Below, piece by piece: positions 2,753-26,116 of a stretch of 32,746 nucleotides of DNA. Made by a program: the position numbers and the translations under genes. The DNA is from a virus. Position 1 is the stretch's first letter; each line of letters starts with the position of its first letter. Under the pieces are notes generated by a model. That model saw only the letters and a program-made list of their open reading frames with translations. It was not told where the DNA came from and did not search any database. The stretch covers positions 1-32,746 of the IMG/VR virus record IMGVR_UViG_3300044799_000158. One strand, written 5' to 3'.

Positions 2753-2791
2753 CTCGCCTCCCTGTCGCTCATGCTGTCTCCTTGCCGGGGG

Positions 2792-9304: not shown

Positions 9305-9926
9305 CAGCCTATCTCCCCGTACTGCGCCCTGAGTTCATCTCTGAGTTTCTTTAGTTCATCGGGCGGCATGTTCTTCAAACTCGGCGTCTCCCCTTCACCC
9401 TTACCATATTTCGCGTCACTCCCCAGATTGTAGTAGAGGATTATCTGGCCGAGTGACATCTGCCACAAAAGATATTCTTTCGTGGCCCACGGATACATCA
9501 GGGCCATGCCCACAAACAGGGGGCCGAGGTGAACCTTGCCGTCACCCCCGCCCCCGCTCAGTTTTTTCCGTACTCCCGAACCCCCTCATAGGATCGCAGG
9601 AGAGCATCCTTGATGATCTCGGCCATCTTCTGTGTCTGCACGGCATCCACGTTCGCGCGAAACCATGCCTCTGTCATCTCGGGATTGTTCACCCTTGCGA
9701 AAGTCGCACACAGCTTGATGGTCAGGTCCAGCGCGTCCCGCGTTACGGTACCGCCCTCTTTGATTTGTTTCTGGTCCAACTTCATCAAGTCGCGCACAAT
9801 CTGGTCGATCTCGAATGTTATCCCGCAGGGGATCATTGAAACGTCGATGGTCTTGTTTGCGAGCCGCACGCATTTGCGCTTCGGCCGCAGGATGTCCAGG
9901 TCAACGATATCAGTCATGTCTGACAT
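9304..9926 (-). CDS. Tail assembly chaperone, -1 frameshift fusion product (GT-like)
   Basis: Reading from the ATG at 9926, ribosomes that slip back one base at 9561-9567 continue in the frame that ends at 9304. The fusion would be 122 residues from the first frame plus 85 from the second, 207 in all. The second frame has no good start of its own (its first candidate, a GTG at 9513, has no ribosome site) and is open upstream exactly to the slip site. The extension has ATKEYLLWQMSLGQIILYY and an acidic/basic helical end, like the T part of lambda GT. The fused protein is expected to bind tail tube and tape measure during tail assembly and to be made in small amounts. Confidence 0.85.
9519..9567 (-). 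promoter_or_regulatory. Programmed -1 ribosomal frameshift signal
   Basis: On the minus strand the heptamer A AAA AAC lies at 9567-9561 in the correct register (zero-frame codons GGA AAA AAC, then TGA). Five bases later (TGAGC) begins a strong hairpin: arm GGGGGCGGGGGTGA (9555-9542), a 9-base loop (9541-9533), and arm TCACCTCGGCCCCC (9532-9519). The arms pair over 14 positions with one G-G mismatch and one G-U pair. Slippery heptamer, spacer and hairpin together are a textbook -1 frameshift site, and it joins the two tail chaperone frames. Confidence 0.88.
9558..9926 (-). CDS. Tail assembly chaperone, unshifted product (G-like)
   Basis: This 122-residue protein starts at the ATG overlapping the tail-tube stop (TAATG) and ends at TGA 9558-9560, right after a slippery run. 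It is a compact helical protein with a conserved-looking IVRDLMKLDQKQIKEGG segment and ends EYGKN. Between the tail tube and tape measure genes this is the usual gpG-like chaperone, which coats the tape measure before tube polymerisation. An ATG three codons in is an alternative start; the ribosome site for either is weak, suggesting coupling to the upstream gene. Confidence 0.85.
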   Translation of the reverse strand: MSDMTDIVDLDILRPKRKCVRLANKTIDVSMIPCGITFEIDQIVRDLMKLDQKQIKEGGTVTRDALDLTIKLCATFARVNNPEMTEAWFRANVDAVQTQKMAEIIKDALLRSYEGVREYGKN

Positions 9927-10483
9927 TAGACTGTCTTCGTTATGGAGAAGAGTTGAGACCCGGCGCTGCGCGTCGAATCGACCTTCGCCTCAATTGCAAT
10001 GGGCATGATGGTGATCGGGTCAGCATCGTTGTCTGATTTTGCGGTGAACTGGAGTCCCGCAGTCAGATGCGCCTTATAGGTAAGAATCACGGTCGTTTTC
10101 GTTGCCCCGCTGATGATCCTAGTGTTCGTCAAACGGAATGCCCGATCCGTGATCACGCTGTTTCCGCCGCCATTGATGACCGTCTGCACTGACGATGAGG
10201 TGGTGTCCGCGCTGATCGCCCCGCCGGAGATTGCCGAAAGTACCGAGGCATCATACTCGATGAGTTCACAGTCGATGGTGAAGGTCTCATCGGCTACGCC
10301 TTCCACGGGGTCCGGCGCGTTCCCGGCCTGCGTCTTGTACATGGTAATGTTGTGCCCGAACTTCGATACCATGCCCGCGCCCAGATTGACAAAAGTTCCC
10401 CCCGAGCTCGCCGAGGTCTCGATCTTGTAGTTGCCGAGGATCAACTTTGCGCTGTCAACGGATGTGTTCTGATGGTACGCCAT
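9926..10483 (-). CDS. Major tail tube protein
   Basis: The ATG at 10483 has an excellent CAGGGAGGTAGT site; the frame upstream is shadow. The 185-residue product begins MAYHQNTSVDSAKLILGNYK and is rich in Ser, Thr, Gly and beta strands, including GTFVNLGAGMVSKFGHNI, a conserved-looking core and a Gly-rich loop (ISGGAISAD). Placement between the tail terminator and the tail chaperones is the standard place for the tube subunit. A capsid-like abundance is suggested by the strong ribosome site. Confidence 0.8.
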   Translation of the reverse strand: MAYHQNTSVDSAKLILGNYKIETSASSGGTFVNLGAGMVSKFGHNITMYKTQAGNAPDPVEGVADETFTIDCELIEYDASVLSAISGGAISADTTSSSVQTVINGGGNSVITDRAFRLTNTRIISGATKTTVILTYKAHLTAGLQFTAKSDNDADPITIMPIAIEAKVDSTRSAGSQLFSITKTV

Positions 10484-10497
10484 ACTACCTCCCTGAT

Positions 10498-10923
10498 TTA
10501 GCTGACCGTATCCAACGGATACGTCAAAAGAATATCCACCGGCACGTTGTAGCAACTGCTATCAGGTTCCGGTATAAGCCCGTTGTGATTCCTAAGTGAC
10601 ACCCGCGCAACTTGGAACAGATTCCCAGCTGACCCGCCGTCCCCGTAGACGCCCGTCCCCGAGGAACCGTTGAAAAGCTCGATCACTTTCTCCGCAAGAT
10701 TCAGCGCAGTGTCAGCGGTGACCGCCCGGCAATTGATGGAGAATGTCGTCGAGCCGATTCCGTTCCGTCTGCCCCCGGGCATCTCGTAGTAATTGATGCA
10801 CGGCAGCGCAGAGAGAGCAGAGGTCTGAGGCCGCATCCCGTGCGTTATCCTATTCGCCGTGGTGATGGACGTAACCGCCGATGCCCCTATGAGACTGACC
10901 CCGATTACCTGATAGGGCTTCAT
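10498..10923 (-). CDS. Tail terminator/completion protein candidate
   Basis: ATG at 10923 follows GAGGGAGAAGTGGC and overlaps the stop of a 31-codon gene (ATGA). The 141-residue protein has alternating strand/helix pattern: an N-terminal SLIGASAVTSITTANRITHGMRP region, a central FSINCRAVTADTALNLAEKVIELFNG that looks like the helix of lambda gpU-type terminators, and a C-terminal beta strand PVDILLTYPLD. Position directly upstream of the tail tube gene agrees with a terminator that caps the tube and joins it to the head. Confidence 0.6.
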   Translation of the reverse strand: MKPYQVIGVSLIGASAVTSITTANRITHGMRPQTSALSALPCINYYEMPGGRRNGIGSTTFSINCRAVTADTALNLAEKVIELFNGSSGTGVYGDGGSAGNLFQVARVSLRNHNGLIPEPDSSCYNVPVDILLTYPLDTVS

Positions 10924-11015
10924 GCCACTTCTCCCTCTTTGTAAACGTGAAGCAAACTTCTCCTCACTAGATTAATGATCTTGTAGATTACAGGAGGTCC
11001 GTTTCTATTTCTCAT
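10920..11015 (-). CDS. 31-residue basic protein fitted between HK97 gp10-like and tail terminator genes
   Basis: This very short frame begins with an ATG overlapping the gp10-like stop and ends with a TGA overlapping the next ATG, so both junctions are ATGA. AGGAG lies nine bases upstream. The product begins MRNRNGPPVIYKIINLVRR and is strongly basic, with a hydrophobic-basic helix in the middle. Without it there would be an unexplained gap of about 90 bp in an otherwise packed operon. No family recognised; the perfect junctions are the main evidence that it is translated. Confidence 0.55.
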   Translation of the reverse strand: MRNRNGPPVIYKIINLVRRSLLHVYKEGEVA

Positions 11016-11452
11016 AATCCACGACTCCTAAGATAACTGTCGTGCTCCTGTAGGTAGGTTTTGAAGTGCATCTTCGCGTTCCGCTCGACGATGGTGAGAA
11101 CCTTCCCCTGTGCCAGTTGGAGCGCCGGTCTCAGGAACGGCTGTGCATCGGTTTTGATAGTTCCGAATTCCATGTGCGGTCCGTACTCGACCGGCGTTCC
11201 GACAAGCACCTCCATGGCATCATTCGGTTTCTGGATCACATCCGATGAAATAGCGGGAGACTTGGGGGATGTACCCTCTGTGGACGATTGCGTGGTGATA
11301 CTCCCCGCGAGTCTCCCGGTATCCACTGGACAAAGTTCCTTCGCCTGCCCCTCGACGACAAGCCCTATCTCATAGGCGCTCCTGCCGACAACCTTCTTGC
11401 CCATGATCTTGACTTCCTCGCCGTGCCACTGCTGGGAGACCGTTGACTTCAT
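11012..11452 (-). CDS. HK97 gp10-like neck/tail-joining protein
   Basis: The ATG at 11452 overlaps the previous stop (TGATG). The 146-residue protein has the signature of the HK97 gp10 family: AKELCPVDTGRLAGSI near residue 40, a middle loop, VEYGPHMEFGTIKTDAQPFLRPAL near residue 90, and a C-terminal amphipathic helix. Members join the head to the tail in siphoviruses. The serine-rich insertion in the middle (SSTEGTSPKSPAISSD) is longer than in compact relatives. Confidence 0.85.
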   Translation of the reverse strand: MKSTVSQQWHGEEVKIMGKKVVGRSAYEIGLVVEGQAKELCPVDTGRLAGSITTQSSTEGTSPKSPAISSDVIQKPNDAMEVLVGTPVEYGPHMEFGTIKTDAQPFLRPALQLAQGKVLTIVERNAKMHFKTYLQEHDSYLRSRGL

Positions 11453-12803: not shown

Positions 12804-13679
12804 TTACCCGGCCGCTTCTGCAAGGTAGAGGGTAAGCAGCTCCTCGGGAGCCGTCACCTTTGCGCCGTAGACGTACAGTCCGCGCGCCGCGGTAGCAAAC
12901 GTAGTCTGAATACGCAATCTTTCGACTTCGGTCACCTGTCCCGCGTAGCCGATTGCGTTCCTGGTTCCGCACATGATGCGGTACTGGGTTCCGTTGTTGG
13001 ATATGTTCTGAGACTCGTAGATGTCGAATCCCAGGAGGTGACCGATATATCCGTTGACCAGAGCGCCGTCACTCTGGAGCTTCGGCACTCCGATTGCCGA
13101 AACCGCGCCTGTTGCAGCAATCGTGAGTTTCTGCACCAGCCACGACGGGACCGTTATCCACCTGCCGCCCGTTGGCACGTTCTTCTCGCTCAGGTACCGC
13201 TGTGCATAGGTGAACGTCTCGATGACGTTCCCCGAGGAGACGGAAAGCGAGCCGCCCGATGCGCCGATGTAGGTCGTCGCGGAAGGCGTCGCCCCCGCCT
13301 GCGCATACAGCCCCGCGATATAGGCGTCGATGGTGTCAGCGATCCTGTAGGCTGCGTCGCTCATGGCACCGTCCATCAGCGACGGGGTTGACTGCGCCTG
13401 TGCGATATCGATGTCGTCGATCTTGAAGGCGAAACTCGACGCCTGGTCGATCTTCAATTCCTTCTGCGCGCTGGACAGGCTCTCGTAGCTGAGGGTTGCG
13501 CCCTTGGTATAGGCAGTAACCGTCACCGGCCCTATTTCGTTGATCTTCACCGTGTCGCCGAACCGAGCGATTTCTCCCTCATAGGTCCGCTGGCACAGTG
13601 CCCCGAAAATCAGCGATTTGCGGAGTTTCACAAAAAGCGAAGCGCTCCACATCTCAGGAACGAAATTCTCTACTCCCAT
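12804..13679 (-). CDS. Major capsid protein (P22-coat-like)
   Basis: The 291-residue protein starts MGVENFVPEMWSASLFVKL after GGGAGGGAATC. The N-terminal RKSLIFGALCQRTYEGE, then FGDTVKINEIGPVTVTAYT and the following helix of the E-loop region (SAQKELKIDQASSFAFKID), is typical of the P22-like coat family in the HK97 fold. A spine helix and A-domain core follow (IADTIDAYIAGLYAQAG, then RWITVPSWLVQKL). It follows the scaffold gene, as expected. No delta-domain protease gene is visible, in keeping with a separate scaffold protein. Confidence 0.85.
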   Translation of the reverse strand: MGVENFVPEMWSASLFVKLRKSLIFGALCQRTYEGEIARFGDTVKINEIGPVTVTAYTKGATLSYESLSSAQKELKIDQASSFAFKIDDIDIAQAQSTPSLMDGAMSDAAYRIADTIDAYIAGLYAQAGATPSATTYIGASGGSLSVSSGNVIETFTYAQRYLSEKNVPTGGRWITVPSWLVQKLTIAATGAVSAIGVPKLQSDGALVNGYIGHLLGFDIYESQNISNNGTQYRIMCGTRNAIGYAGQVTEVERLRIQTTFATAARGLYVYGAKVTAPEELLTLYLAEAAG

Positions 13680-13691
13680 GATTCCCTCCCG

Positions 13692-14333
13692 TTATTTTCT
13701 CGTTGCAGCGTCACGCTTTTCAGCTTCGGCAATTTCGTATGCCATGCGCTGCTTGGAATCCATCTTGGATACGTCCACCTTGGATTCCCCTCCCCCACCA
13801 TTGTTGCCAGATCCCGGTTTGAAGCCGCCTGCCAGAAGTTCATTCGCCTTCTTGCTCTCGACTTCCGCGTACCGTTTCACCCTGGCGTCCAGTCTTTCGA
13901 TCCCGCTTTCGAGGGTCAGTTTGGGATTGTCGATGTCAAGCTCGTCTTTCAGAACAAGTTTCCGTGAAGCGGCTTCGGCTTCAAGCTGGCGTAAAACACG
14001 CTCGCGCGCGAGCTCGCCGTCTTTGGAGTCGAGTCGTTTCTTGATCTCGGCTACCTCATCGGCGACGGTCATCTTCTCTTTCTTCCCCAGCTCCGCAACC
14101 TTCTTGCTGATCTCCTCGTCGATCTCCGCACGCTTCTTTTCGTCATGCGTCTTGACAGCCTTCTCGGCGTATCGATCGAAGTGACTCCGCACACTCTCAA
14201 AGTTCTCTTTGACTTTGAGAAATTCTCCGAGTCGCTCCTCCGTGATAGCCGCGTAGGATGCCATCAATGCCTTGACTTCCTCGGTATCCTTGTTCTTTTC
14301 CAAGAACGCCTTGACCTCAGTAATCCCTTCCAT
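13692..14333 (-). CDS. Capsid scaffolding protein
   Basis: I choose ATG 14333 (213 residues), seven bases after AAGGAG; ATG 14360 with GGAGG four bases away is a close rival. Longer frames run into the terminator at 14415-14454. The protein is nearly all charged helix: VKAFLEKNKDTEEVKALMAS, EISKKVAELGKKEK and VAEIKKRLDSKDGELARERV, followed by a Gly-rich linker (GSGNNGGGGES) and a short basic C-terminal helix. This coiled-coil body with a flexible linker and a C-terminal coat-binding helix is the typical scaffold design. It directly precedes the coat gene. Confidence 0.8.
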   Translation of the reverse strand: MEGITEVKAFLEKNKDTEEVKALMASYAAITEERLGEFLKVKENFESVRSHFDRYAEKAVKTHDEKKRAEIDEEISKKVAELGKKEKMTVADEVAEIKKRLDSKDGELARERVLRQLEAEAASRKLVLKDELDIDNPKLTLESGIERLDARVKRYAEVESKKANELLAGGFKPGSGNNGGGGESKVDVSKMDSKQRMAYEIAEAEKRDAATRK

Positions 14334-14414
14334 GTCCCTTCTCCTTGGCGACTCGAACATCGAGCCTCCGCTTTGGATTTCGCACAGCCCCCGAGGATCA
14401 TCCCCGGGTGCAAT

Positions 14415-14454
14415 AAAAAAAGGGCGCACCGAGATTTCTCTCGAATGCGCCCTT
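14415..14454 (-). terminator. Intrinsic terminator upstream of scaffold gene (attenuator candidate)
   Basis: On the minus strand AAGGGCGCA (14454-14446) pairs with TGCGCCCTT (14428-14420); an inner CGAGA/TCTCG stem extends it. It is followed by a seven-base T run (14421-14415). Hairpin plus T tract on the minus strand is a classic Rho-independent terminator. It lies after the cargo cassette and about 80 bases before the scaffold start, so read-through or a downstream start is needed for head genes. Confidence 0.85.
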
Positions 14455-14483
14455 CCGTTTTCGGATCGGGTGCTCTAAGTCCT

Positions 14484-14563: not shown

Positions 14564-14736
14564 GACTTCTCCTCAAGGGTGAAATGGTCGCAATCCACGC
14601 TCTCCCGCCGCACGTCCACCACTTGCCCCGCGTGAACCTTAAACCTGATCGCAACCTCGCCATACTGCCGTTTGGCAAGCTCCCCCTCGATCCATGCCAG
14701 ATACTCGCCGATTGATGAGCCCGTTGTCGTCGTCAT
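14560..14736 (-). CDS. DUF2292 (YezD)-like small protein
   Basis: This 58-residue protein starts at the ATG overlapping the HNH stop (ATGA), with AGGAAGG upstream, and ends at TGA 14560-14562. The core YGEVAIRFKVHAGQVVDVRRE matches the pattern of DUF2292/YezD proteins (F-G-x-V-x-I-x-V-x-x-G-x-V-V-x-I-x-R), which are about 60 residues long. Their function is unknown; many occur next to sulphur or transport genes and in phages. It is the last gene of the cargo segment before the terminator. Confidence 0.6.
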   Translation of the reverse strand: MTTTTGSSIGEYLAWIEGELAKRQYGEVAIRFKVHAGQVVDVRRESVDCDHFTLEEKS

Positions 14737-15122
14737 ATCGCCTTCCTGCAGCCCGGGCGGTTGTCTGCATGTAATCTCTTGGATATTTCATCAAGATCAG
14801 GGAGCGTTTCGGGACCATTCGTTATCTTTTTTTTCGAGGAACGCCATAATAACGCACCAAGCATTGATTTGATAAATGATTTTTTCTCCCCCCCCAATTT
14901 GTGCGCACATCTCTTATGGCAATCCCTACAAAGAACGAGCAAGTCAGAATATCCTTCATTCCAGAGATGGTTATAATTTTTGTGGTGAACATCTAGATTT
15001 TTCTTTTCGGAGCAAATTTGGCATTCATGATGAGCTTCCGATAACATCATGGTGCGAATGGATCGCCAATGTCGGGATCGAAGATATATGCCATGATACC
15101 ATAGTTTTAGACGGGTACTCAC
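14733..15122 (-). CDS. HNH endonuclease
   Basis: GTG start at 15122 overlaps the TGA of the glycosyltransferase gene (GTGA); 129 residues. The HNH core is clear: CQICSEKKNLDVHHKNYNHL, then YSDLLVLCRDCHKRCAHKL, giving two CxxC zinc pairs, the His-His catalytic pair and the final His. The C-terminal third is basic and may bind DNA. The gene is visibly richer in A and T than its neighbours (runs of T around 14827-14835 and 14881-14886), which suggests it came from elsewhere. Unusually for a homing endonuclease it is start/stop-coupled on both sides. Confidence 0.8.
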   Translation of the reverse strand: MSTRLKLWYHGIYLRSRHWRSIRTMMLSEAHHECQICSEKKNLDVHHKNYNHLWNEGYSDLLVLCRDCHKRCAHKLGGEKKSFIKSMLGALLWRSSKKKITNGPETLPDLDEISKRLHADNRPGCRKAI

Positions 15123-16441
15123 TTCACGGCCTGCCGCGCCTTCACAAGCGCCAGCAGCTTCTCCACCCGCGCCATGTTCCCTGCCACGTCGATCCCCACC
15201 GAGCGCAGTATCTTCCCATCCTTGCACTCCGGGCATGCCTCGCCGGTGTGGTCCTTCTCGTCATTCGCCAAGGATTGCGCAGAGCATTTGTCACACTTGT
15301 ACTGCCGCTCGATCCCCGCCATGAATGCCGGCAGGTCCTGTAGCGGATTCTCGCTCTCGATGAACGCTACCCCGTTGTCAGTCACGACGACAAACGCCCC
15401 CACGCTCGCAAGGTACCGCTCCGTGATCCTCTCGATCATCTCGTGGCTCTGCGTCGGGTAGTTCAACCCCTGTTTCTGGATCATCTTCTCCACGTTGGTA
15501 AACGGCACCTCGCACATAATCCCTTGGTCCGTGGAGTACATCTGCTGATGGGACAGCCGCCACGCGCTGATGTGGTTCTTCTTGTAGTACAAATGCATCT
15601 CGGCAGTCAGTACCCCGCTATTCGTCATTACCTTGCCGTCCGCCGGTGTATACGGGTGCTCGTGCGTGATCCACTTCCCGTCATCGCCCACCGTGTAGCC
15701 GGTGAAGCGTTCCTTATTGTGCGGGAAACCGTAATCGCATCCGCAGAGAAACACCGTGCCGTACCCCAACCGATCCGCAACGAACATCTGCATGGGTGGG
15801 CTGCACGCAAAGATCGTGATCTTTGTCCTGATGTAGAAGTGGAACGTCGGATTCCGCGGCGGCCCATCACGCCAGGTATACATGCGTTTCTGCGTCGTCT
15901 CGTAAAATGAATCCGGATGCCCGTTGTCCTGAATATAGAGCAGCATTTCGCCCGGCCAGGTCGCAACCATCTCGGGAGTGATCCCGGGGTGAAGCACGAG
16001 CTTCGTCCGCGTCTTGCTCCAATCCACGCCCTTGATCTCATCCCACCCGGAGAACGGGTCAAGGCACACGATATGCGTCGGCTCGATCCCATGGTACATG
16101 AGGGTGAGCGCATGAGACGTGCTGCATAGTATCCCTCCCTTCCACTGCTTCAAATGCTTGATCGAGTGGTCCAGTGACGGCCCCGAACCGATGATAACGC
16201 AAGGCACCTTGTCCACCTTCGGCTCATCGGAGATGTCCCGCGCGCGCCCTGCTTTGAACGCCTCCACGATGGGCGTCCAGTTCTCGGCGCTGTTGCACTC
16301 CTCGATTATGAGTTGCTTGTGTTTCGTTCCTTCGTTGTATGCGCCGGAAAACGAGCGGATTGTCCTTTCGTTTTTTTCGACGGGCTTCTCTATCGTCGAT
16401 GTCATCCCGTCAACCGCGCCTGTTGCCAATTGGTCAGACAT
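15119..16441 (-). CDS. MAF/DUF115-type glycosyltransferase with C-terminal zinc ribbon
   Basis: The 440-residue protein starts at ATG 16441 after GGAGAGAGC. Residues 78-130 hold the hallmark of the DUF115/MAF (motility accessory factor, MptE-like) family: VPCVIIGSGPSLD (GSGPSLD at 85-91), then SHALTLMYHGIEPTHIVCLDP. MAF enzymes of Campylobacter, Aeromonas and relatives transfer CMP-activated nonulosonic acids to flagellin; the DUF115 fold is shared with sialyltransferase-like enzymes. A later YGTVFLCGCDYGFP segment matches the usual second conserved block. Two CxxC pairs (383-386 and 403-406) form an extra zinc ribbon not usual in MAF. Its upstream neighbour, ten bases away, makes CMP-nonulosonate, so the pair would supply donor and transferase. 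Acceptor unknown. Confidence 0.7.
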   Translation of the reverse strand: MSDQLATGAVDGMTSTIEKPVEKNERTIRSFSGAYNEGTKHKQLIIEECNSAENWTPIVEAFKAGRARDISDEPKVDKVPCVIIGSGPSLDHSIKHLKQWKGGILCSTSHALTLMYHGIEPTHIVCLDPFSGWDEIKGVDWSKTRTKLVLHPGITPEMVATWPGEMLLYIQDNGHPDSFYETTQKRMYTWRDGPPRNPTFHFYIRTKITIFACSPPMQMFVADRLGYGTVFLCGCDYGFPHNKERFTGYTVGDDGKWITHEHPYTPADGKVMTNSGVLTAEMHLYYKKNHISAWRLSHQQMYSTDQGIMCEVPFTNVEKMIQKQGLNYPTQSHEMIERITERYLASVGAFVVVTDNGVAFIESENPLQDLPAFMAGIERQYKCDKCSAQSLANDEKDHTGEACPECKDGKILRSVGIDVAGNMARVEKLLALVKARQAVK

Positions 16442-16451
16442 TGCTCTCTCC

Positions 16452-17261
16452 TTATTGCTGATTTAGATTGCCGGCAAATCTTGCCAGCACGGATGCGCTC
16501 TTCTGCTTCGTAGCCCCGTATTCCTGGTAGACCATCGGTCCGCGTCCTTTGAGGATGAACTTCTCCATGGCCAGCTCCCCCATCTCAAACTCGACAAGGG
16601 TATCGACATCAACCCACTGCCATGGCTCCGATGGAAAGTAGTAGAGCGTGGTCCCCGCCTGATCCGACTTCGCCGCTTCCCTGTCCATGTCTTTGTCAAG
16701 GTCTGATTCGTCGGTGTCCTGATACCACAGATACCAAGCCGGGGAAGTAACAATCCAGAATCCCGCCTCCCCGAGATACCCATACCGCTTATCAAAGAGC
16801 ATGGTATGCGCCCTGTTTCTTCCAAGGTCTTTCAGTAGCACCATTTCCCGCATTGGCCGCAGCGGTCGGATACAATCAGCCCCGATGGAGCGATACATCC
16901 GGATGCCATTGTCAAAGTCCCCGGGGAGATTGAGCGGATTCGTCGGGAGGATCGTCAACACCGTGTCGAAGTCAGTCCCATGCTCGCGCATGATCTGCCT
17001 GATGCCATGGACCATCGGCCTGCACGCCGCCGCCTCGTTCGCGTCCGGCCAGTCGGGACGGCGGATCACTTGTGCGCCGTACTGGTTTGTGATGTCCGCT
17101 ATCTCATCGTCGTCGGTACTGACATATACCGCGTCGATCAGGTGCGATTCCCGCGCCTGAATGATAGCCCATGCAAACAGTGGGTGCCCGCAGAATAGCT
17201 TGACATTTTTCCTCGGCAATCGTTTCGACCCTCCGCGCGCGCAAATCAAAGCTGCTGTCAT
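16452..17261 (-). CDS. Acylneuraminate (nonulosonate) cytidylyltransferase
   Basis: The 269-residue protein starts at the ATG overlapping the permease stop (ATGA). Residues 8-19, ARGGSKRLPRKN, are the signature nucleotide-binding motif of CMP-sialic acid synthetases (ARxGSKxLxxKN). VYVSTDDDEIADITNQYGA, ILPTNPLNLPGDFDNGI and the late QWVDVDTLVEFEMGE (the metal-binding DxD region) follow in the family order. The enzyme would join CTP to a sialic, legionaminic or pseudaminic-type acid, giving CMP-nonulosonate and pyrophosphate. Which acid cannot be told from sequence alone. The family is usually about 220-240 residues; the extra C-terminal 30 or so residues (GPMVYQEYGATKQK) are unassigned. Directly precedes the MAF-like gene. 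Confidence 0.85.
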   Translation of the reverse strand: MTAALICARGGSKRLPRKNVKLFCGHPLFAWAIIQARESHLIDAVYVSTDDDEIADITNQYGAQVIRRPDWPDANEAAACRPMVHGIRQIMREHGTDFDTVLTILPTNPLNLPGDFDNGIRMYRSIGADCIRPLRPMREMVLLKDLGRNRAHTMLFDKRYGYLGEAGFWIVTSPAWYLWYQDTDESDLDKDMDREAAKSDQAGTTLYYFPSEPWQWVDVDTLVEFEMGELAMEKFILKGRGPMVYQEYGATKQKSASVLARFAGNLNQQ

Positions 17262-18097
17262 CCCTTCACCCCTCCATCAACCGTGTAGTCCATCAAATGC
17301 TTTCGCCCTGCCAGAAATATGAGTAGCGTAGGAATGAACATCCCCACGCCCATTGCCATCTTGATATTTATCATGCTTTCAGTTCCGCCGACGCTGCTTG
17401 CCACAGTCCATATTTGATTGGTGAATGCGACAACCACCGTCTGCATTTTTGGGGAAATAAGATTGATCGACTGCCAGAGATAGTCGCCCATAAACTCCAT
17501 ACCCTTGCCTATGGCAGTCAGAGCAAAGACAGGCTTAGAAATAGGCAGCACGATATGCCAGAGTGTTTGAAGGTCAGTAGCCCCATCGAGTACCGCCGCC
17601 TCGAAATATCCATCAGGCATGCTTTTCAAGAATTGCCATGCGATGATGATCCCTGATGGAACGGCAAGACTTTTGAGCATGACGGCAGGCAGTCCCGATA
17701 TTCCCATGTAACGCATTTCCAGAAACAAAGGGATGATGATCACGGTTGAAGGAATAGCCATGGCGATTACTAGTATTACCAGAGTAAGCCGACGCAGCCG
17801 TGCCTTCATCTTCACCATGGCAAACCCGCCAGCGAGCGCAAGTATGCCGCTACCGATTGCTACCACAGCAGCGTAAATCATGGTATTGGCGTACCAGCGC
17901 GCCACAGGTCCAGCCCTTGAAAGCGCCGCATAGTTGCCGAGTGACATTTCGGCAAAGTTGATCGTGCGTAGATTAACGAACCTTGCGCCCAACCCTGTGC
18001 CGAGAGATAGCAAGGCCATGCAAATAAGCGGAACGTAAAAGACAGCGACAAGTAGCCAGGGAAGGCGCTTCAATTCATCCTCACTATGAAAGCCCAT
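17258..18097 (-). CDS. Carbohydrate ABC importer permease, MalG type
   Basis: I choose the ATG at 18097 (279 residues); upstream sequence in the same frame is not membrane-like, and the ribosome site here (ATCCGG) is poor. Six hydrophobic segments are visible, starting PWLLVAVFYVPLICMALL. The cytoplasmic EAA loop is intact at about 166-188: EAAVLDGATDLQTLWHIVLP, which docks on the ATP-hydrolysing subunit. This is the CUT1-family inner permease. Its stop overlaps the start of the cytidylyltransferase. The EAA loop needs an ATPase (MsiK/MalK type), but none is in the window, so the host's shared ATPase would have to serve. Confidence 0.88.
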   Translation of the reverse strand: MGFHSEDELKRLPWLLVAVFYVPLICMALLSLGTGLGARFVNLRTINFAEMSLGNYAALSRAGPVARWYANTMIYAAVVAIGSGILALAGGFAMVKMKARLRRLTLVILVIAMAIPSTVIIIPLFLEMRYMGISGLPAVMLKSLAVPSGIIIAWQFLKSMPDGYFEAAVLDGATDLQTLWHIVLPISKPVFALTAIGKGMEFMGDYLWQSINLISPKMQTVVVAFTNQIWTVASSVGGTESMINIKMAMGVGMFIPTLLIFLAGRKHLMDYTVDGGVKG

Positions 18098-18176
18098 ATT
18101 ACCGGATCTTGTTCTGTACCAATAGAAACACAGACATATCCGGGATGTTGCTTTATGCAAAACAGGAGGTGCTTCA

Positions 18177-18386
18177 TTATTTGAATAATCCAGTCTTATG
18201 ATAAACAAGATTACATTCAGGGCATGCCCAAAGCCCATCTCCTACATTCAAGAGAGGATATTCGCCATGCATAAATATTATTGGAAAACTTCTATCAGTT
18301 TCATTTCCTTGAACTACCTCAGCCATGGTTCCGGCATTTGTTGCATGGCGACAGTATGGTTTTCCATCTTTTATGATAAAACTCAT
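18177..18386 (-). CDS. Small protein with single CxxC zinc motif, inserted between permeases
   Basis: The 69-residue protein starts at the ATG overlapping the first permease's stop (ATGA). It has an early Cys-His pair (YCRHATNAG), and a C-terminal WACPECNLVYHKTG, so a zinc-finger-like site with two extra ligands is plausible. The DNA here is richer in A and T than the permeases around it. It separates the MalF- and MalG-type genes, which are normally adjacent, and leaves an 80-base gap before the second permease. No family recognised; it may be an inserted phage gene. Confidence 0.5.
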   Translation of the reverse strand: MSFIIKDGKPYCRHATNAGTMAEVVQGNETDRSFPIIFMHGEYPLLNVGDGLWACPECNLVYHKTGLFK

Positions 18387-19195
18387 CTTTTTACTCTCCT
18401 TACCGCGAGCATGATCAACCCAAATGCCGCCAAGTAGATCGCCGTCTCCGCGCTGGCGAGTCCATATTTCACCTGTGCAAATCCGGTGTCATATATCTGC
18501 CACACCGGGGACCCCGATGCGCCCTGCGGCCGCGCGCGGGAGATAATCTGGATGGTCTCCCATATTTGCGTTGCACCGATCATCGAGAGAATTACCAGCG
18601 CCGCGAGAATCTTGGATATGCCCGGCAGGATGATGCGCCACCGTATCTGCCCCTCCCGCGCCCCGTCGATCCGCGCCGCCTCCCGCACGTCGCCCCCGAT
18701 GGATGCCGCAAGCACCGATATGATCATTGCATTCCCGCTTGCCGCGGCCGCCACTATGACAAGGCTCATTGCCGCAATCGCCGTCCATCGGTTCGCCCAT
18801 ACGTTGATAATGCCAGCAAGTGGGCCGGTGAAAGGATGCAGAACCCATATCCACAGCGCCGCTATCATCACCCCCGCGGCTAGTCCAGGCACATAGAGCG
18901 CTGTCTGTATCTTCTTGCGCATTCGCTTAGGAAGGTCGGCAACCAATAGGCCAAGCGGGATGCCTATCCCAAAGTTGCCGACCGTTATCAGCACCGCATA
19001 CGCCAAGCCATTAACGAGTGACCCCATGAATCGCACGTCTCCCAGTGCCGTGACGTAATTGCGCAAGCCCACGAATGCGTTGTCCTGAAAGTCGATCTTC
19101 CACAATCCGACCACTGCTGATACCGCCATAGGAAGGATAAAAAAGAGCACGCACAATGCAAGACTCGGCAGTATCAACAGGGCGGATCGGTTCAT
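18383..19195 (-). CDS. Carbohydrate ABC importer permease, MalF type
   Basis: The 270-residue protein has six predicted membrane helices, beginning ALLILPSLALCVLFFILPMAV. The EAA loop is at about 172-192: EAARIDGAREGQIRWRIILP, with the conserved G and LP positions. This is the CUT1 family permease that pairs with a MalG-type partner to form the import channel for an oligosaccharide or glycoside. It starts right after the stop of the binding-protein gene and ends overlapping the small zinc-finger gene, as expected for a SBP-MalF-MalG operon that gained one gene. Confidence 0.88.
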   Translation of the reverse strand: MNRSALLILPSLALCVLFFILPMAVSAVVGLWKIDFQDNAFVGLRNYVTALGDVRFMGSLVNGLAYAVLITVGNFGIGIPLGLLVADLPKRMRKKIQTALYVPGLAAGVMIAALWIWVLHPFTGPLAGIINVWANRWTAIAAMSLVIVAAAASGNAMIISVLAASIGGDVREAARIDGAREGQIRWRIILPGISKILAALVILSMIGATQIWETIQIISRARPQGASGSPVWQIYDTGFAQVKYGLASAETAIYLAAFGLIMLAVRRVKR

Positions 19196-20458
19196 TTACT
19201 GTAGCGCCTCGTTCGCCGCCTTCTCATAATCCTTGATCAGCTTTTCAGCGTCGATCTTGCCGTCAAAGAATTGCGCCAGAAGCGGCATGAGCACCGGGCG
19301 GAATGCGGGATACTTCGGAGTCTCCCCGCCCATGTCATAGGCGCCGTACTTGTTCACCACGTCGGCGAGCTGCTGCATGTTGCGCGCGGTATTCGTGTTC
19401 GCCATGCCTACGATGCTTGCAACCCCGGATCCCTGAGTGACGATCTGCTTCTGAAATCCTTCATCCGAACAGAGCACCGCAAGTTCCGCGCCGATCTGAT
19501 TCAACCGCTTGTCCTTCTTGTCCATGGCGACGACAGCGGCGTAATTCAAGAATGTTCCGGTGCTCTTGACCCCGGGTGCAAGCGGGAACGGATACCAAGC
19601 AGACTTGAATGCTTCGGGAATAGCGCCTGCCTTGACCTTCGCCCCTACCTCCCCGAGGAAGTCCGGGAATATAGGCTGTGCCGCTGCCTTGCCTTCTGCA
19701 AAGATGGACACCATGTCGTCGTCAATGAGCTGGCTTGCATTCGGTGCCGCGTAACCCTTGGCAATCATGTCCTTCAACCATGCGAGCGTCGCGCGCATCT
19801 GTGGGGAATTGATAGCCACTTTTGAGTAATCGTTGTTTTTGAAAAACTCCACACCGAATGAAGTAAACCATGCCGTGACATAGGGAATGGGATTCGACCC
19901 TGAGAAAAATACGGTGCCGTATTTCCCCTTGGTTTTTGCCAGCCTCGCAAACTCCATGAACTGCGCCATGGTCCAATTACTCCCCGGCGCCGGCAGCTTG
20001 AATCCCACCTCCTCGGCAAGCGACACATTTACGCTCAGTCCAAGCGGAGCCACGGTCTGCGGAAGCGCATAGACATGCCCGTCCCTGGTAGTCCGCGCAA
20101 GGATTGCAGGCTCATACTTTTTCAGGTCGGCAGGAATGTACTCCTTCAAATCAATTGCCTGCCCGGCCTTGAAAAGTTTCGATGAGCGCATGACGGTGAT
20201 GGCCACCACGTTCGGAGCGTTGCCGCTGGCAATCATCGTCTCCAGCGTCATGTCCACCGCGCCCTGTAGCGTCCCCTGGATGAGCTCCACAGTCACCCCG
20301 GGGTAGCGCTCCTGGATGAGTGTGGCAGCGCGGGAGAAGACCGTCGGCCATGCCTGCCCTGCAAGCGGCGTGTCCCCCTCGTGCAGCAGCGTGATCTTCT
20401 GCGCGTTCAGTGAGAAGGCACAAAGGATCGCAATCAAGACAAAAGTGATTCGTTTCAT
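19196..20458 (-). CDS. Extracellular solute (sugar)-binding protein of ABC importer
   Basis: The start is the ATG at 20458 (420 residues), set by GGAGGTACCT. The N-terminal signal peptide reads MKRITFVLIAILCAFSLNA with cleavage near Ala20; a cysteine at residue 12 is not in a normal lipobox, so the protein is probably soluble periplasmic or poorly anchored. The body has the family-1 binding-protein pattern: ITLLHEG near the start, APNVVAITVMRSS, LFKAGQAIDLKEYIP and DGHVYALPQTVAPLGLSVN, then SNWTMAQFMEFARLAK. This is the CUT1/MalE-like group that binds sugars. Substrate cannot be inferred. It leads a run with two permeases. Confidence 0.9.
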   Translation of the reverse strand: MKRITFVLIAILCAFSLNAQKITLLHEGDTPLAGQAWPTVFSRAATLIQERYPGVTVELIQGTLQGAVDMTLETMIASGNAPNVVAITVMRSSKLFKAGQAIDLKEYIPADLKKYEPAILARTTRDGHVYALPQTVAPLGLSVNVSLAEEVGFKLPAPGSNWTMAQFMEFARLAKTKGKYGTVFFSGSNPIPYVTAWFTSFGVEFFKNNDYSKVAINSPQMRATLAWLKDMIAKGYAAPNASQLIDDDMVSIFAEGKAAAQPIFPDFLGEVGAKVKAGAIPEAFKSAWYPFPLAPGVKSTGTFLNYAAVVAMDKKDKRLNQIGAELAVLCSDEGFQKQIVTQGSGVASIVGMANTNTARNMQQLADVVNKYGAYDMGGETPKYPAFRPVLMPLLAQFFDGKIDAEKLIKDYEKAANEALQ

Positions 20459-20519
20459 AGGTACCTCCATGATTGGAGGAATTTAGCAGGAAGGGAGTTG
20501 AAATTACTATGTCAAAACG

Positions 20520-20795
20520 TCAACAGTTCACTATGGCCATAATCCGTCGCGGTGACAATTCGTGTCTTTTCGCCAGTTGCTTATAGCTGGACATGCATGT
20601 TCCGCCCGTGGAAAGCATCTCATGGAATTGCGCCTTGATGATATCGTCCCGCCCGTCCTTGATCTTGCGCGGCCAGTATTTAGCCTCGCCGCCAAACTCC
20701 CTTAGAAATTTCTCTGCGCCTTCCCTGCCGACAAGACTCACAAGGATAGACGTGGCGGATGTCTCGGTGTTAGATGTGGTGTCTTGATTCTTCAT
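20520..20795 (-). CDS. Mor-like transcription activator family protein
   Basis: The 91-residue protein starts at ATG 20795 one base after the previous stop (TAGATG). The stretch FLREFGGEAKYWPRKIK followed by SSYKQLAKRHELSPRRIMAIV matches the Mor/C family plan: a FGG-x3-Y-x-P dimerisation region, then a helix-turn-helix ending in a recognition helix. Mor of phage Mu activates middle promoters. It lies between the minor head gene group and the sugar importer, so it could switch on the cargo cassette or late genes. The 5' third is Ser/Thr-rich and unstructured. Confidence 0.6.
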   Translation of the reverse strand: MKNQDTTSNTETSATSILVSLVGREGAEKFLREFGGEAKYWPRKIKDGRDDIIKAQFHEMLSTGGTCMSSYKQLAKRHELSPRRIMAIVNC

Positions 20796-20936
20796 CTACG
20801 CGGCTTTCTTCCTGAGAGTCCGCAGTCTCGCCTTGGCTTCCTCCGATAAGGGGAATAGTTCAAGATGTCTTCTTTTGGCAGTATTGAGTCCGAGATAGAT
20901 TATTCCATAAGACGATCTATCGAACGATGGGTCCAT
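20796..20936 (-). CDS. 46-residue basic hypothetical protein
   Basis: The ATG at 20936 lies inside the end of the minor head gene (20-base overlap) and the frame stops at TAG 20796-20798, directly before the Mor-like ATG. The product begins MDPSFDRSSYGIIYLGLNTA and ends in a basic helix (EEAKARLRTLRKKAA). It fills a gap that would otherwise be empty. No family recognised. No strong ribosome site, so translation would be coupled to the gene above. Confidence 0.45.
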   Translation of the reverse strand: MDPSFDRSSYGIIYLGLNTAKRRHLELFPLSEEAKARLRTLRKKAA

Positions 20937-21849
20937 TTTCCTTCGCCCATTCGTTAAACGGCATGTAAGGAATTATACCCTGATCCCGCGTGCGGCGCAA
21001 CTGTGGGGAATAGCCCGCGACCTCGAAGCGCAGCTTACACCTACAATTTATTCTCTGCTCGGCCGACAATCCTTCCCATGCAGGGTACGGCGCGGTCTCC
21101 CCGTTAGGGAAGTGAAACAGGCCCTCGGCGTCACGCACCTGCCCGTCCATCTCTTGGTGTTGGTCCCGCGTGCGTTCGTCCAGCGTAGCCGACCATACCA
21201 CGCTACCATCGACACCATCCTCTAGCGCCTTGTCATAGGCATCCGCGGTCCCTGCCGCTATCGCCCCCTGCCCCTCGGTGCGGATGATCCGCATAGCCTC
21301 AAAGTTAGTCTTGTTCAGCGCATCCTTGATATCGCGCATCATGTCTTGATACGACTTCCCCTGCGCCAACCCATTGTTCAGAGCGACCCTGATCTTGCCC
21401 CGCGCCTTCATGGAGTAGTTTTTCAGCGCCTCGGCCATAGCCTCGTTCTCTGGATCGGTTATTGCATAGGCCGCCTTGATCGCGTCGGTATTGATGATCC
21501 CCCAATTGAGACTTATCCCGGTAGCGTTGTCTATCGCCCACGCCGAGCGAAAGAATGCAGCCTGGTACTGATCGGGAGAAAGCCGCTTCATCGTCGCCAT
21601 GCTCGCCTTGATCGCGGGGTCCATCTTGCTGACAATGTTCGTCTCCATCGCCGAGTACCGAGCGTACCGCGTCATCGCGGCCTTGCTCAGAATGCCGTCA
21701 ACAGCGTACTTCTCATAGATCACGCCCATTGCCGCGCGTATCTCATCCAGCGCCTTACGCAACACGGAAGCTACACGGCGCTCGTACAACGCCTCACGCG
21801 CTCTCAGTGCTTTTGCCGCCGCGTTTTCCAGAGCGGTCAAATCAGGCAT
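20917..21849 (-). CDS. Minor head protein, Mu gpF / SPP1 gp7 family
   Basis: The 310-residue protein starts at ATG 21849, overlapping the previous gene by 8 bases. The N-terminal half is helical; the C-terminal half has WSATLDERTRDQHQEMDGQ, then LFHFPNG and EQRINCRCKLRF. The T-R-x-x-H-x-x-M-x-G and N-C-R-C motifs are the signature of the Mu gpF-like/SPP1 gp7 head morphogenesis family. These sit inside the procapsid with the portal. Neighbours (portal upstream) agree. Confidence 0.88.
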   Translation of the reverse strand: MPDLTALENAAAKALRAREALYERRVASVLRKALDEIRAAMGVIYEKYAVDGILSKAAMTRYARYSAMETNIVSKMDPAIKASMATMKRLSPDQYQAAFFRSAWAIDNATGISLNWGIINTDAIKAAYAITDPENEAMAEALKNYSMKARGKIRVALNNGLAQGKSYQDMMRDIKDALNKTNFEAMRIIRTEGQGAIAAGTADAYDKALEDGVDGSVVWSATLDERTRDQHQEMDGQVRDAEGLFHFPNGETAPYPAWEGLSAEQRINCRCKLRFEVAGYSPQLRRTRDQGIIPYMPFNEWAKENGPIVR

Positions 21850-22135: not shown

Positions 22136-22335
22136 CAGTCCGGCCAGTTTGCCAGCGCTTCCTCTGCCGCCTTCACGGGGTTCATCTCGGGCGGCATGAA
22201 CTGATGCGCCCGCGCGAATGCGGCGCCCGAAGTGAATGCTCCCCGCATGTCATCGGCGGTGAATGCCGCAATGATCTTCGTGCGCTCGGGAACCGAGAAA
22301 TCATTGACGCCCCTTGCTTTCGCCTCTTCTCTCAT
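22135..22335 (-). CDS. Small hypothetical protein downstream of portal
   Basis: The 66-residue protein starts at the ATG overlapping the portal stop (ATGA). It is soluble, with VPERTKIIAAFTADDMRGAF and a C-terminal EMNPVKAAEEALANW helix. No family recognised. Its position in the tight portal operon supports translation. Confidence 0.55.
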   Translation of the reverse strand: MREEAKARGVNDFSVPERTKIIAAFTADDMRGAFTSGAAFARAHQFMPPEMNPVKAAEEALANWPD

Positions 22336-23861
22336 TTCGCACCTCCAATCGGTTTCGCATTCTTGTTCATCGGCTTTCCCTGCATGTCTACAGGATTGCC
22401 TTGTGCATCCACGTTCTCGTCCGGCGCTGGAACGTTGCTGATATCAGGCATGAGGGCATTCGCATCCTCATCCTGCCGTTTCAACTCCTCATCCACATCA
22501 GGGATGATATCGTCGGGCATGATATCGGCTATCACGTAACGGCTAAATCCCGCATTCTTCATCGTCAACGCCGTGTCTGCAAACTGCTTCATGTCCAGCG
22601 GGACGTTGCGCTTGTGGGAAATGCTTATCATTCCGGGCGTGCCTACAGTGCGCTTTGCCTTGCCGTACATCAGTGTTATCATCCGTATACGCTCGATCAA
22701 CCCCGTGTCAAAGTCGGCTTCCGCAGAACTAACCAGATTCTCCAGGGGGAACAAGAGACGTTCGATTGCCGCCCCCGACAAAGTACCTGTTGCTATGTTT
22801 TTGAAATCGGGAACATGAGACTGAAGATGTATCTGATCACGGATAAAGTCTGACATGAACGTTATGAACTCGGTAGGGATATCCTTTGTCAGGTAGCTGA
22901 TCTCCGCGTCTTTCGGCACGTTCTCGAACACTCGCTTGCGCTTCATCATGGCAAGCGCCTGAGAAACAACGCCCGGCTCTTTCTTTTTCATCATATCGCT
23001 GATCCCGAAGTTTTTCATGATCAAGTAGGCGGCGGCAAATTTGTCATACTCATTCATCGAATCGCTGATGAGCGTGTCGTATGCATCAACCAGCGGGAGG
23101 ATTGGTTCGATAACACCCAACATCTCATCCCCAAAGTAATAGGCTACCACGGGGATCTCCCCGAAGAAGTTTGGTTGCACACCATCAGCAGTCAACGTCC
23201 ATTTGTAACCGCCTTTCTCCCGCTTGCGGTCGTACAGATCCACGCGCTCAGGGTAGTACACCTCGACCTTATAGTGATCCGGCGTGATCGGGTAGAAGCG
23301 AATCGCCATGACCTTCCGCGGCTCTGAGGAGTAGTCGTACAGCAAGATCATCTCGCGCGGGTCCACGGAGAAGAACCGCGGCTCTGCCTTGACTGCCATC
23401 TTTGCATCAAGAGCCGCGTCGATGTAAAGCAATTCATAGGACACGCCGAATATCCCCGTGTTGCGTCCCGCTCGGGAAGTTTTGACGTGCTCGCTATTCA
23501 GGTTGAAGGTCTCTTGAAGCTCCTTCACATAGATTTCGGCTGGAGAGGATGCCTTGTCCGCCGTGTCCGTGTCCTCCGCCCCCGGTTCCGCCTTTGGCGT
23601 GACGGCCTTATACGTGATGTACCGCGGCCGGTAGGCATAGCCCGCAAAATCCTTGATGATCTTCCGCGCGTAGGCGATAGGCACCTTGTTGTCCGGGCTA
23701 TTCGGGTCCGCGGCCTTGCGTGACATAATCGCCGTGTTCTCGCCCTTGTAGTACGACCAGAGTTTGTCGAACTCCTTCACTTGCGCTTTCTCGTACTCGT
23801 CGATGTAGGTCAGGATTTCGTCAGGCGTCAGCGTCGTCTTGTCGGTCTTCTGTAGTTGCAT
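22332..23861 (-). CDS. Portal protein, SPP1 gp6-like
   Basis: The 509-residue protein starts at ATG 23861 after GGGGAGGGGACC. TPDEILTYIDEYEKAQVKEF followed by LWSYYKGENTAI is the typical N-terminus of the SPP1 gp6 portal family. NKVPIAYARKIIKDFAGYAY (the stem/wing region) and LSGAAIERLLFPLENLV further on (the tunnel-loop region) agree. The C-terminal tail is Asp/Pro/Asn-rich and unstructured. It forms the dodecameric ring for DNA entry and exit. Length is normal for the family. Confidence 0.88.
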   Translation of the reverse strand: MQLQKTDKTTLTPDEILTYIDEYEKAQVKEFDKLWSYYKGENTAIMSRKAADPNSPDNKVPIAYARKIIKDFAGYAYRPRYITYKAVTPKAEPGAEDTDTADKASSPAEIYVKELQETFNLNSEHVKTSRAGRNTGIFGVSYELLYIDAALDAKMAVKAEPRFFSVDPREMILLYDYSSEPRKVMAIRFYPITPDHYKVEVYYPERVDLYDRKREKGGYKWTLTADGVQPNFFGEIPVVAYYFGDEMLGVIEPILPLVDAYDTLISDSMNEYDKFAAAYLIMKNFGISDMMKKKEPGVVSQALAMMKRKRVFENVPKDAEISYLTKDIPTEFITFMSDFIRDQIHLQSHVPDFKNIATGTLSGAAIERLLFPLENLVSSAEADFDTGLIERIRMITLMYGKAKRTVGTPGMISISHKRNVPLDMKQFADTALTMKNAGFSRYVIADIMPDDIIPDVDEELKRQDEDANALMPDISNVPAPDENVDAQGNPVDMQGKPMNKNAKPIGGAK

Positions 23862-24378: not shown

Positions 24379-25641
24379 TCACAACCCCAGCTCCGCCGCG
24401 CCCCAGTCCGATATCTGGAGCACCCTGTTCGGCTCCCCTATCCCTTCACTACATCCATAGCGAATACTGTCTATCGCGTGGTTGTAGTCGTCAATCGGTT
24501 CTGCCTTCATATCGCCCTCCCGTGACACCTTCCACGTATAGTTAGCGAGTTCCATTTGGATGTTGGCCGAGCGTCCGGTGACGTGAATGCGCTTTGAAAG
24601 TAGCCAGTCGATCCCCACGCGCACAGAGTCCGGTCCCTTCAACGCGCCCTCAATACGATAGCCAAACTTGCGCCGGAGCTCCTCTACACTCTTCGGCTCT
24701 GCGCAGTCAGCCCACACGGTAACACCATCGACTATCAGGGCTTTCATCATCTCCCCCAGATCGTCGTTTGTCAATTGCGTCTGGTAGATCAATTCGTCGA
24801 TCCACACATCATCCCCGTTGACATAGATATCCGTGAGTACAGCCGGGTCAACACTGAAACCAAAGTCAAGGCCATAGGTATGGCGTGAGTGCAACATGAT
24901 CTCATCCGTGATCTCGGCGACGTCCCAATTCGTAAAGATGGTTCCCTCGGGGTCTGTCCACTCGCCCAGCAAGAATCGCTTGCGCTTCATTTCTGGCAGG
25001 CGCTCAAGAATGTCCTCGATGTACCGCGGCGGAAGGTTGCCTCTGTTGTCCTCAGGGTTGACCTTGAGATAGGCATATCCTAGCCCGCATGGCTTCCCGT
25101 CCGGCAGCTCGCCATGCAAGAATATCTTGTTAGCCCAGTGCAGCCTGCCAGCAGGGTTGCAGTCGTAGTATGCCATGTTGCGGCATCCGGGGATGCTTTG
25201 AGAAAGTCGTGTCAGTACCGTGGTAACCGTGTCATAGGGCAATTGCGATATCTCGTTGAAGTAAATCGTCGCGTATTCACGGCCTAAAATCTTGTCAACA
25301 CGGTCCTTGTCGTCCAGACCGTCAATCCAGACCTCCGAGCCGTTGGCAAAGCGCGCGTAATGGTCAGTCTCGTTTAGAGTATAGGCGCCCTTGGGGATAT
25401 GATCACGCAACACCTTTTGCAGCGTGTCCATCCAAATAGACAGCTTTGCATGGGCGAATCGAAGGCGGGCTATCAAATGTCGGGACTCGGGATACTGCGC
25501 GGCGCGGCTGACAACGGCAAGGACAAGCAGGTACGTTTTGCCAGATCGAGCACCCCCTGCCAAGAGTACATGCTTGTTTACGGGGTCGCGTAGGAGCTCC
25601 AGGGCCTTCAGCTGCTTAGGGGTGAAGGCGAACTTAGACAC
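24379..25641 (-). CDS. terL: Terminase large subunit
   Basis: The 420-residue protein has an ATPase half with Walker A GGARSGKT at 29-36 and Walker B ATIYFNE at about 124-130, and a nuclease half with D259 (GLDFGFSVDP), D312 (WADCAEP) and D390 in DDYNHAIDSIRYG. The order fits PBSX/SPP1-type large terminases that use headful packaging. It overlaps the small subunit gene by 8 bases, starting MSKFAFTPKQ. All catalytic residues look present. It cuts the concatemer and pumps DNA into the procapsid. Confidence 0.93.
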   Translation of the reverse strand: MSKFAFTPKQLKALELLRDPVNKHVLLAGGARSGKTYLLVLAVVSRAAQYPESRHLIARLRFAHAKLSIWMDTLQKVLRDHIPKGAYTLNETDHYARFANGSEVWIDGLDDKDRVDKILGREYATIYFNEISQLPYDTVTTVLTRLSQSIPGCRNMAYYDCNPAGRLHWANKIFLHGELPDGKPCGLGYAYLKVNPEDNRGNLPPRYIEDILERLPEMKRKRFLLGEWTDPEGTIFTNWDVAEITDEIMLHSRHTYGLDFGFSVDPAVLTDIYVNGDDVWIDELIYQTQLTNDDLGEMMKALIVDGVTVWADCAEPKSVEELRRKFGYRIEGALKGPDSVRVGIDWLLSKRIHVTGRSANIQMELANYTWKVSREGDMKAEPIDDYNHAIDSIRYGCSEGIGEPNRVLQISDWGAAELGL

Positions 25642-26116
25642 CCTGCAATTCCTTGGCGAACAGGATAGTCAGTGGCCCGCCATTGGCACCGGTGATCTCC
25701 TGCTTGTGCCGCCAATCCTTTGGGCGCCGGTTGGTGAGCCAGAACTCGGCAGCTCCCGTGTCGGGGGCGAAGTGCTCGATGTAAGGAACTTGTCTCACCC
25801 TCCCGCCAACGGTCATGATCTTAATGGCAGGGTGAGAGTAGCCTATGGCGCGTTGGAACAGGGAAGCCTCGACCATATCATCAGGCCAAGTCTTCCCATC
25901 CGCTAATGCCTTCCGAAACTCTTGATACCTTTTTTGCCAACAGTGAAATGTGGTCTGCCCAATCGTCATGGCCTTTGCTATAGCCTCGCCTGACAATCCT
26001 TGCTTTGCCAAAATCTTAGCTAGAACAGGATGAATATCGGGGTCATACTTCGGGGGGCGCCCGCCGGGGTGCTTGCCGTGAGATGCAGGCTTGCGCTTGA
26101 TAGACTTCTTTCCCAC
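25634..26116 (-). CDS. terS: Terminase small subunit
   Basis: GTG start at 26116 (160 residues), set by the GGGAGGGGAAT site. The N-terminus is basic with an AT-hook-like GGRPPKY, then a helix-turn-helix: LAKQGLSGEAIAKAMTIGQTTFHCW, typical of terS DNA recognition. A central oligomerisation region and a C-terminal NRRPKDWRHKQEI, common in phage small terminases of this group, follow. It would recognise the pac site; the large subunit is directly downstream. Confidence 0.85.
   Translation of the reverse strand: MGKKSIKRKPASHGKHPGGRPPKYDPDIHPVLAKILAKQGLSGEAIAKAMTIGQTTFHCWQKRYQEFRKALADGKTWPDDMVEASLFQRAIGYSHPAIKIMTVGGRVRQVPYIEHFAPDTGAAEFWLTNRRPKDWRHKQEITGANGGPLTILFAKELQGV

Follow-up and report, generated by a model that had tools for sequence, protein, structure and literature searches.

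A phage-borne CUT1-type sugar importer linked to a CMP-nonulosonate-type cytidylyltransferase and a Maf-like glycosyltransferase

Single subunits of uptake systems have been described in phages, as have, independently of them, genes for sugar synthesis or glycosyltransferases. Shared ATPases of CUT1 sugar importers occur in streptococci, with MsmK serving more than one permease pair, and the role of MsmK in sialic-acid uptake is disputed (PMC3302838). Maf enzymes move CMP-activated nonulosonic acids onto Ser/Thr residues of flagellin and can use CMP-Neu5Ac and also Kdo (PMC11339370), and substrate binding and catalysis have been attributed to the central domain of Maf (PMC9298399). Here we analyse the 32,746-base IMG/VR virus record IMGVR_UViG_3300044799_000158, a single metagenomic contig taken at its full length (the window), in which genes for a sugar-binding protein (SBP) and two permeases of the MalF and MalG types precede a cytidylyltransferase gene and a Maf-like gene. 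We consider, with a probability of roughly 0.6, that the importer trio supplies the sugar in a phage cassette for glycosylation that imports, activates and attaches a nonulosonic-type sugar.

The three importer proteins score above the Pfam cut-offs (Table 1), the SBP carries the N-terminal signal peptide of a secreted family-1 solute-binding protein, and both permeases keep their EAA loops, as seen in the sequences and in the family alignment. This agrees with an initial annotation of the window, which had placed a CUT1-type SBP and MalF/MalG-type permeases with EAA loops in a phage head operon. The same annotation set the trio between head genes; the shared operon and minus strand hold, but the trio is not immediately next to the head genes, the cytidylyltransferase, Maf-like and HNH endonuclease-like genes intervening. 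Judged from their sequences, these are real, intact genes of a CUT1-type sugar importer, for which transport itself is predicted. MalG probably starts at the Met at 18097, where homology begins, rather than at 18238. The match of the MalF-like protein to the UgpA model falls below the equivalog cut-off, and the closest PDB relatives of the SBP are oligosaccharide-binding SBPs. A Pfam search with the 69-aa open reading frame (ORF) between the permease genes gave no match, and relatives hold other, unrelated small ORFs in this gap.

The trio is not a one-off, since it recurs in at least 16 non-redundant contigs. After near-identical contigs and overlapping loci were merged, all five genes were found in the identical order SBP, MalF, MalG, cytidylyltransferase, Maf-like in 16 phage contigs (the window, L179 group, L170, L171, L172, L174, L175, L176 group, L240/L273, L242, L245, L246, L248, L249, L250 and L278 group), among which the SBP of L174 is cut by the contig end and the MalG of L240/L273 is partial, lying between two loci of one contig. 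These contigs range from 31 to 62% GC, their proteins share 25-60% identity (pairwise medians 38-44%), and at least two portal types are represented. As expected of a phage auxiliary cassette, it is thus present repeatedly in independent phage genomes, flanked by phage genes. A capsid-based search led to L100/L179, with the same five-gene order upstream of TerL, and searches with the MptE-like family yielded further cassette contigs. A search with the SBP family only, which leaves out the Maf-like gene and so cannot be biased towards it, returned 15 loci, all with the cassette or its fragment at a contig end, and added two near-identical contigs with a different portal type. Single-sequence scans for close relatives of the SBP or the Maf-like protein found none, and neither did a scan of genomes for close MalG relatives. 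Phages L002, L004 and L005, whose capsid protein is 72% identical, have no such block at the window's site, so that the block is an insertion relative to them. The window alone has the cassette between the genes for minor head protein and scaffold; in relatives with readable context it stands upstream of TerS/TerL or of the portal gene.

Since the window is one metagenomic contig that may be incomplete, an assembly artefact or host DNA (a chimera, a provirus edge or generalised transduction) had to be considered. This explanation is refuted in practice by the presence of the cassette among phage genes on independent contigs, by ATGA overlaps joining the MalG stop to the cytidylyltransferase start codon and the HNH gene to the small conserved phage ORF that follows it, and by the third-position GC content of the cargo, which matches that of the window's phage genes (0.70 vs 0.675). 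Moreover, the phage MalG proteins form a single clade: in a maximum-likelihood tree 15 of them fall on one side of a branch and 50 cellular homologues on the other (support 100/100), the cellular set being the 50 best matches, from Bacillota and Armatimonadota and not from spirochaetes, and the window's own branch being very long. An earlier maximum-likelihood tree with nine sequences had supported the split at 100/99. Chimera and host contamination were rejected on these grounds. Across the cassette contigs the translations of the five genes showed no internal frame breaks, which the initial annotation had named as grounds for refutation.

The cytidylyltransferase has the family signature motifs (RGGS-R-P-KN, LPTxPL and the C-terminal invariant Asp). 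Its PDB matches are topped by NeuA crystal structures, and the best matches of its family profile are CMP-NeuAc synthetases (6ifd, E 6e-33). With the NCBIfam PseF model it scores 91.8 bits against an equivalog cut-off of 205.7, which makes it a relative and does not fix the exact sugar. The same import, activation and transfer would apply if the CMP-activated sugar were of a different type, for instance Kdo or one of the amino-Kdo derivatives: the enzyme is matched by KdsB models too, SIS and class III aminotransferase genes adjoin it in L241/L168, an aminotransferase gene stands beside the SBP gene in L246, and Maf can use Kdo (PMC11339370). We regard such a sugar as rather improbable, because the NeuA and PseF models outscore KdsB and because PseB/PseC/NeuB genes stand elsewhere in place of the importer. 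In L250 the cytidylyltransferase gene is duplicated in tandem within the cassette (8012-8812 and 8790-9575).

The fifth protein was modelled with AlphaFold from 14 phage sequences (pLDDT 89.8). Among solved structures the model comes closest to 5MU5, a Maf flagellin glycosyltransferase (Z 20.2, 235 residues, 3.1 A), over 5MU5 residues 238-514, a stretch that is essentially the central domain within the limits given in PMC9298399. Next come archaeal HPPK/MptE structures (MjHPPK, Z 13.9), and CMP-sialyltransferases are among the further matches (CstII, Z 9.4; ST8SiaIII, Z 9.2). As to an MptE/HPPK identity, Pfam gives the MptE-like match, the MjHPPK score is lower than that of Maf, and no folate or pterin genes were recognised near the gene. 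At 440 aa, with four invariant cysteines at its C-terminus, the phage protein is shorter than the full three-domain Maf architecture (about 630-650 aa), and no flagellin gene was seen in the window. On the model, it is predicted to work like the Maf catalytic domain and not as a flagellar Maf. As Maf enzymes use CMP-nonulosonic acids, a CMP-nonulosonate-type synthetase beside a Maf-like transferase makes a coherent activation and transfer pair. L172 carries the Maf-like gene as a tandem duplicate within the cassette (8422-9840 and 9971-11368).

The strongest support for a supply role is the replacement of the importer by synthesis genes. On three importer-less contigs the Maf-like gene adjoins nonulosonate synthesis genes: PseB, a NeuB fragment and a WbuX-type amidotransferase in L184; a LegC/PseC-like aminotransferase, NeuB and a second cytidylyltransferase in L247; and PseB, PseC and a NeuB-like gene in L253. 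Importer and NeuB/PseB never share a contig (17 vs 3, Fisher p 0.0009), although the numbers are small and some neighbour genes look split. In L246 a BNR_2 sialidase-like gene lies immediately upstream of the SBP gene. In that contig sialidase-like, aldo/keto reductase and class III aminotransferase genes are woven into the cassette (137-1327, 2646-3503 and 3464-4447).

A nutritional role, in which the importer feeds phage replication beside cytidylyltransferase and Maf-like genes that are mere neighbours, would be in line with the catabolic role that CUT1 SBPs and permeases normally serve and with the oligosaccharides bound by the SBP relatives. Protein distances are strongly correlated within the trio (r 0.81-0.90), less so between cytidylyltransferase and Maf-like protein (0.46) and weakly between the two groups (0.28-0.49), which would suit mere neighbours and is also as expected for two exchangeable sub-modules, the import trio and the activation/transfer pair. 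Nevertheless, the five genes are kept together in fixed order in 16 divergent contigs, with cytidylyltransferase and Maf-like genes always downstream, and the cassette has no conserved gene for a sugar kinase or for catabolism. A nutritional role is therefore unlikely. The initial annotation had proposed that the phage changes what the infected cell takes up, which is incomplete in that it omits the tie to a CMP-sugar synthetase and a Maf-like glycosyltransferase; because of this tie, the imported sugar would more likely serve glycosylation than nutrition.

As annotated at the outset, the window encodes no ATP-binding subunit: a PF00005 search gave no match above the cut-off in it or in a further 21 phage records, 78 kb long at most, which may be incomplete. 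A cognate ATPase alongside is a usual trait of CUT1 importers and not an obligatory one, given that shared ATPases exist. Matches below the cut-off occurred only in G003, G271 and G274, each within a frame of about 311 aa, and are probably DNA-repair ATPases, because the L271/L273 contigs carry RecF/SbcC-like ORFs. If the importer transports, it must therefore use a host ATPase, and one of the MsiK type may power the phage permeases. Phage membrane proteins often exclude other phages, and a trio encoded without an ATPase might act without transport, in superinfection exclusion or as decoys of host ATPases or receptors. We consider this very improbable, since the EAA loops and the SBP are retained, as is the linkage to genes for activating and transferring a sugar, and an inert decoy would need none of these.

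The host is probably a spirochaete. The signal peptides of the SBPs (for example ...VWAEGNAEA, ...YATGQSD, ...LFATGESE) appear similar to spirochaete ones. Proteins with a signal peptide and a terminal Phe, porin-like by eye, are encoded near the SBP gene in L172 (1256-2158), L175 (4186-5199) and L249 (896-1783); the AlphaFold pLDDT of this candidate is only 29.6, so the porin label is unproven, and such proteins, if porins, would fit a diderm host. The nearest capsid protein in named phages, 41% identical, belongs to a Methanosarcinales virus and is uninformative on the host. Leptospira produce nonulosonic acids (PMC3438082), which is compatible with a spirochaete host and no test of it.

As to the sugar, the acceptor, the host ATPase and the benefit, we infer that during infection the phage SBP and permeases, driven by a host CUT1 ATPase, would import a nonulosonic-type sugar, a sialic, legionaminic, pseudaminic or related acid being a candidate. 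The NeuA/PseF-like enzyme would join it to CMP using CTP, and the Maf-like enzyme would then attach it, the likeliest acceptors being a structural protein of the phage and a surface or flagellar protein of the host. Several observations weigh against this supply role. Substrate and acceptor are both candidates only; the nearest solved SBPs with named ligands bind oligosaccharides and not sialic acids; the cytidylyltransferase and the permeases score far under the NCBIfam equivalog cut-offs; and the domains that flank the catalytic part in flagellar Maf are missing from the phage protein. The alternation of import and synthesis rests on only three contigs, of which two are distant or fragmented. 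Finally, the importer-less L241/L168 and L243 have SIS-domain genes beside the pair, with a class III aminotransferase clear in one, so that the sugar may vary.

More tentatively, the cassettes may represent a system spanning phage lineages, in which the infected cell is made to import an environmental sialic-acid-like sugar that is put on virions or on the surface of the host. In such a system the supply module, either import or de novo synthesis, would be exchangeable and the activation/transfer pair fixed. If true, this would be, to our knowledge, the first complete viral route from sugar uptake to glycosylation. A cassette of importer, sugar-activating enzyme and Maf-like transferase suggests that viruses can tap extracellular sugars for glycosylation, and allows tests of which targets phages glycosylate and for what reason, and of the way in which a viral permease makes use of an ATPase of its host.

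Table 1. Features of the window, in minus-strand reading order
Feature	Coordinates	Strand	Remarks
TerS	25634-26116	minus	position and homology to related phages
TerL	24379-25641	minus	
Portal	22332-23861	minus	
Mu-F-like minor head protein	20917-21849	minus	
Small HTH-like ORF	20520-20795	minus	homologues 33-43% identity in L170, L176, L177, L242
SBP, signal peptide	19196-20470	minus	Pfam SBP_bac_8 58.3 bits (cut-off 27), E 1.4e-15
MalF/UgpA-type permease	18383-19195	minus	BPD_transp_1 32.7 bits (cut-off 26.4); EAA loop EAARIDGA..RIILP
69-aa ORF between MalF and MalG	18177-18386	minus	ATGA overlap with MalF stop; CPxC motif; not conserved
MalG/UgpE-type permease	17258-18097 (ORF open to 18238)	minus	BPD_transp_1 48.7 bits; EAA loop EAAVLDGA..HIVLP
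CMP-nonulosonate (NeuA/PseF-like) cytidylyltransferase	16452-17261	minus	CTP_transf_3 E 3.8e-18
Maf/MptE-like glycosyltransferase	15119-16441	minus	MptE-like Pfam E 9.3e-16; C-terminal four-Cys (zinc-ribbon-like) motif
HNH endonuclease-like gene, after cassette	14733-15122 (ORF open to 15236)	minus	weak HNH similarity to IscB/ZorE models
Terminator-like hairpin and T-run, between cassette and scaffold gene	14413-14457	minus	RNA fold -26.8 kcal/mol, z -5.7
Scaffold-like protein	13692-14429	minus	position and homology to related phages
Major capsid protein	12804-13679	minus	

Phage genes flank the block on both sides, with portal, TerL and Mu-F-like genes upstream and scaffold-like and capsid genes downstream, followed by neck, tail and tape measure genes. 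Homologues of the HTH-like ORF lie upstream of the SBP gene in several relatives and directly before the portal gene in L247, and its product is a possible regulator. The HNH gene is likely a passenger rather than a cassette member. The capsid genes downstream of the hairpin may need their own promoter or antitermination. A Termite-leu RNA match at 14371-14459 was rejected, being below threshold, lost on a narrower range and equalled by similar scores in unrelated genomes. In L099 (2331-4808) the TerL frame has 825 aa, with terminase homology only from about residue 430 and an intein-like insert. Beside the cassette we also noted by eye RtcB-like and radical-SAM/QueE-like genes in L178 (2125-4686) and a YhhQ-like queuosine-precursor transporter gene in L183 (3806-4402).

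Compared with described systems, the trio resembles CUT1 importers without a linked ATPase, such as the pneumococcal NeuNAc-linked SP1681-3 and SP1688-90 (PMC3302838), in having an SBP, two EAA-loop permeases and the ATPase in trans, but it is phage-borne, forms a separate MalG clade and is coupled to CMP-sugar and transferase genes instead of catabolism. The Maf-like protein shares its catalytic-domain fold and its linkage to a CMP-nonulosonate pathway with the Maf flagellin glycosyltransferases (5MU5, CbMaf, C. jejuni Maf4); it differs in its length, in the missing N- and C-terminal Maf domains, in its four-Cys C-terminus and in its place in a phage structural region without flagellin. The cytidylyltransferase has the motifs of NeuA/PseF synthetases and departs from them in a divergent C-terminal half and sub-equivalog scores. 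Phage clusters for nonulosonic-acid synthesis, as in L253, point to the same CMP-nonulosonate-type glycosylation, whereas here the sugar is apparently imported and not made; Shewanella phage Thanatos is probably another example of such synthesis. A full-text search of the open-access literature, with most subscription papers outside it, returned no account of a phage in which a sugar importer is joined with a Maf-like transferase. Transport genes are also carried by phages in the cases of cyanophage pstS (cited in PMC10746233) and of soil-virus ABC transporter genes; most of the known cases concern one subunit only or genes for efflux, whereas the cassette combines an SBP and both permeases within a five-gene pathway. 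Its parts are of known kinds, and the assembled cassette for import, activation and transfer appears to be new.

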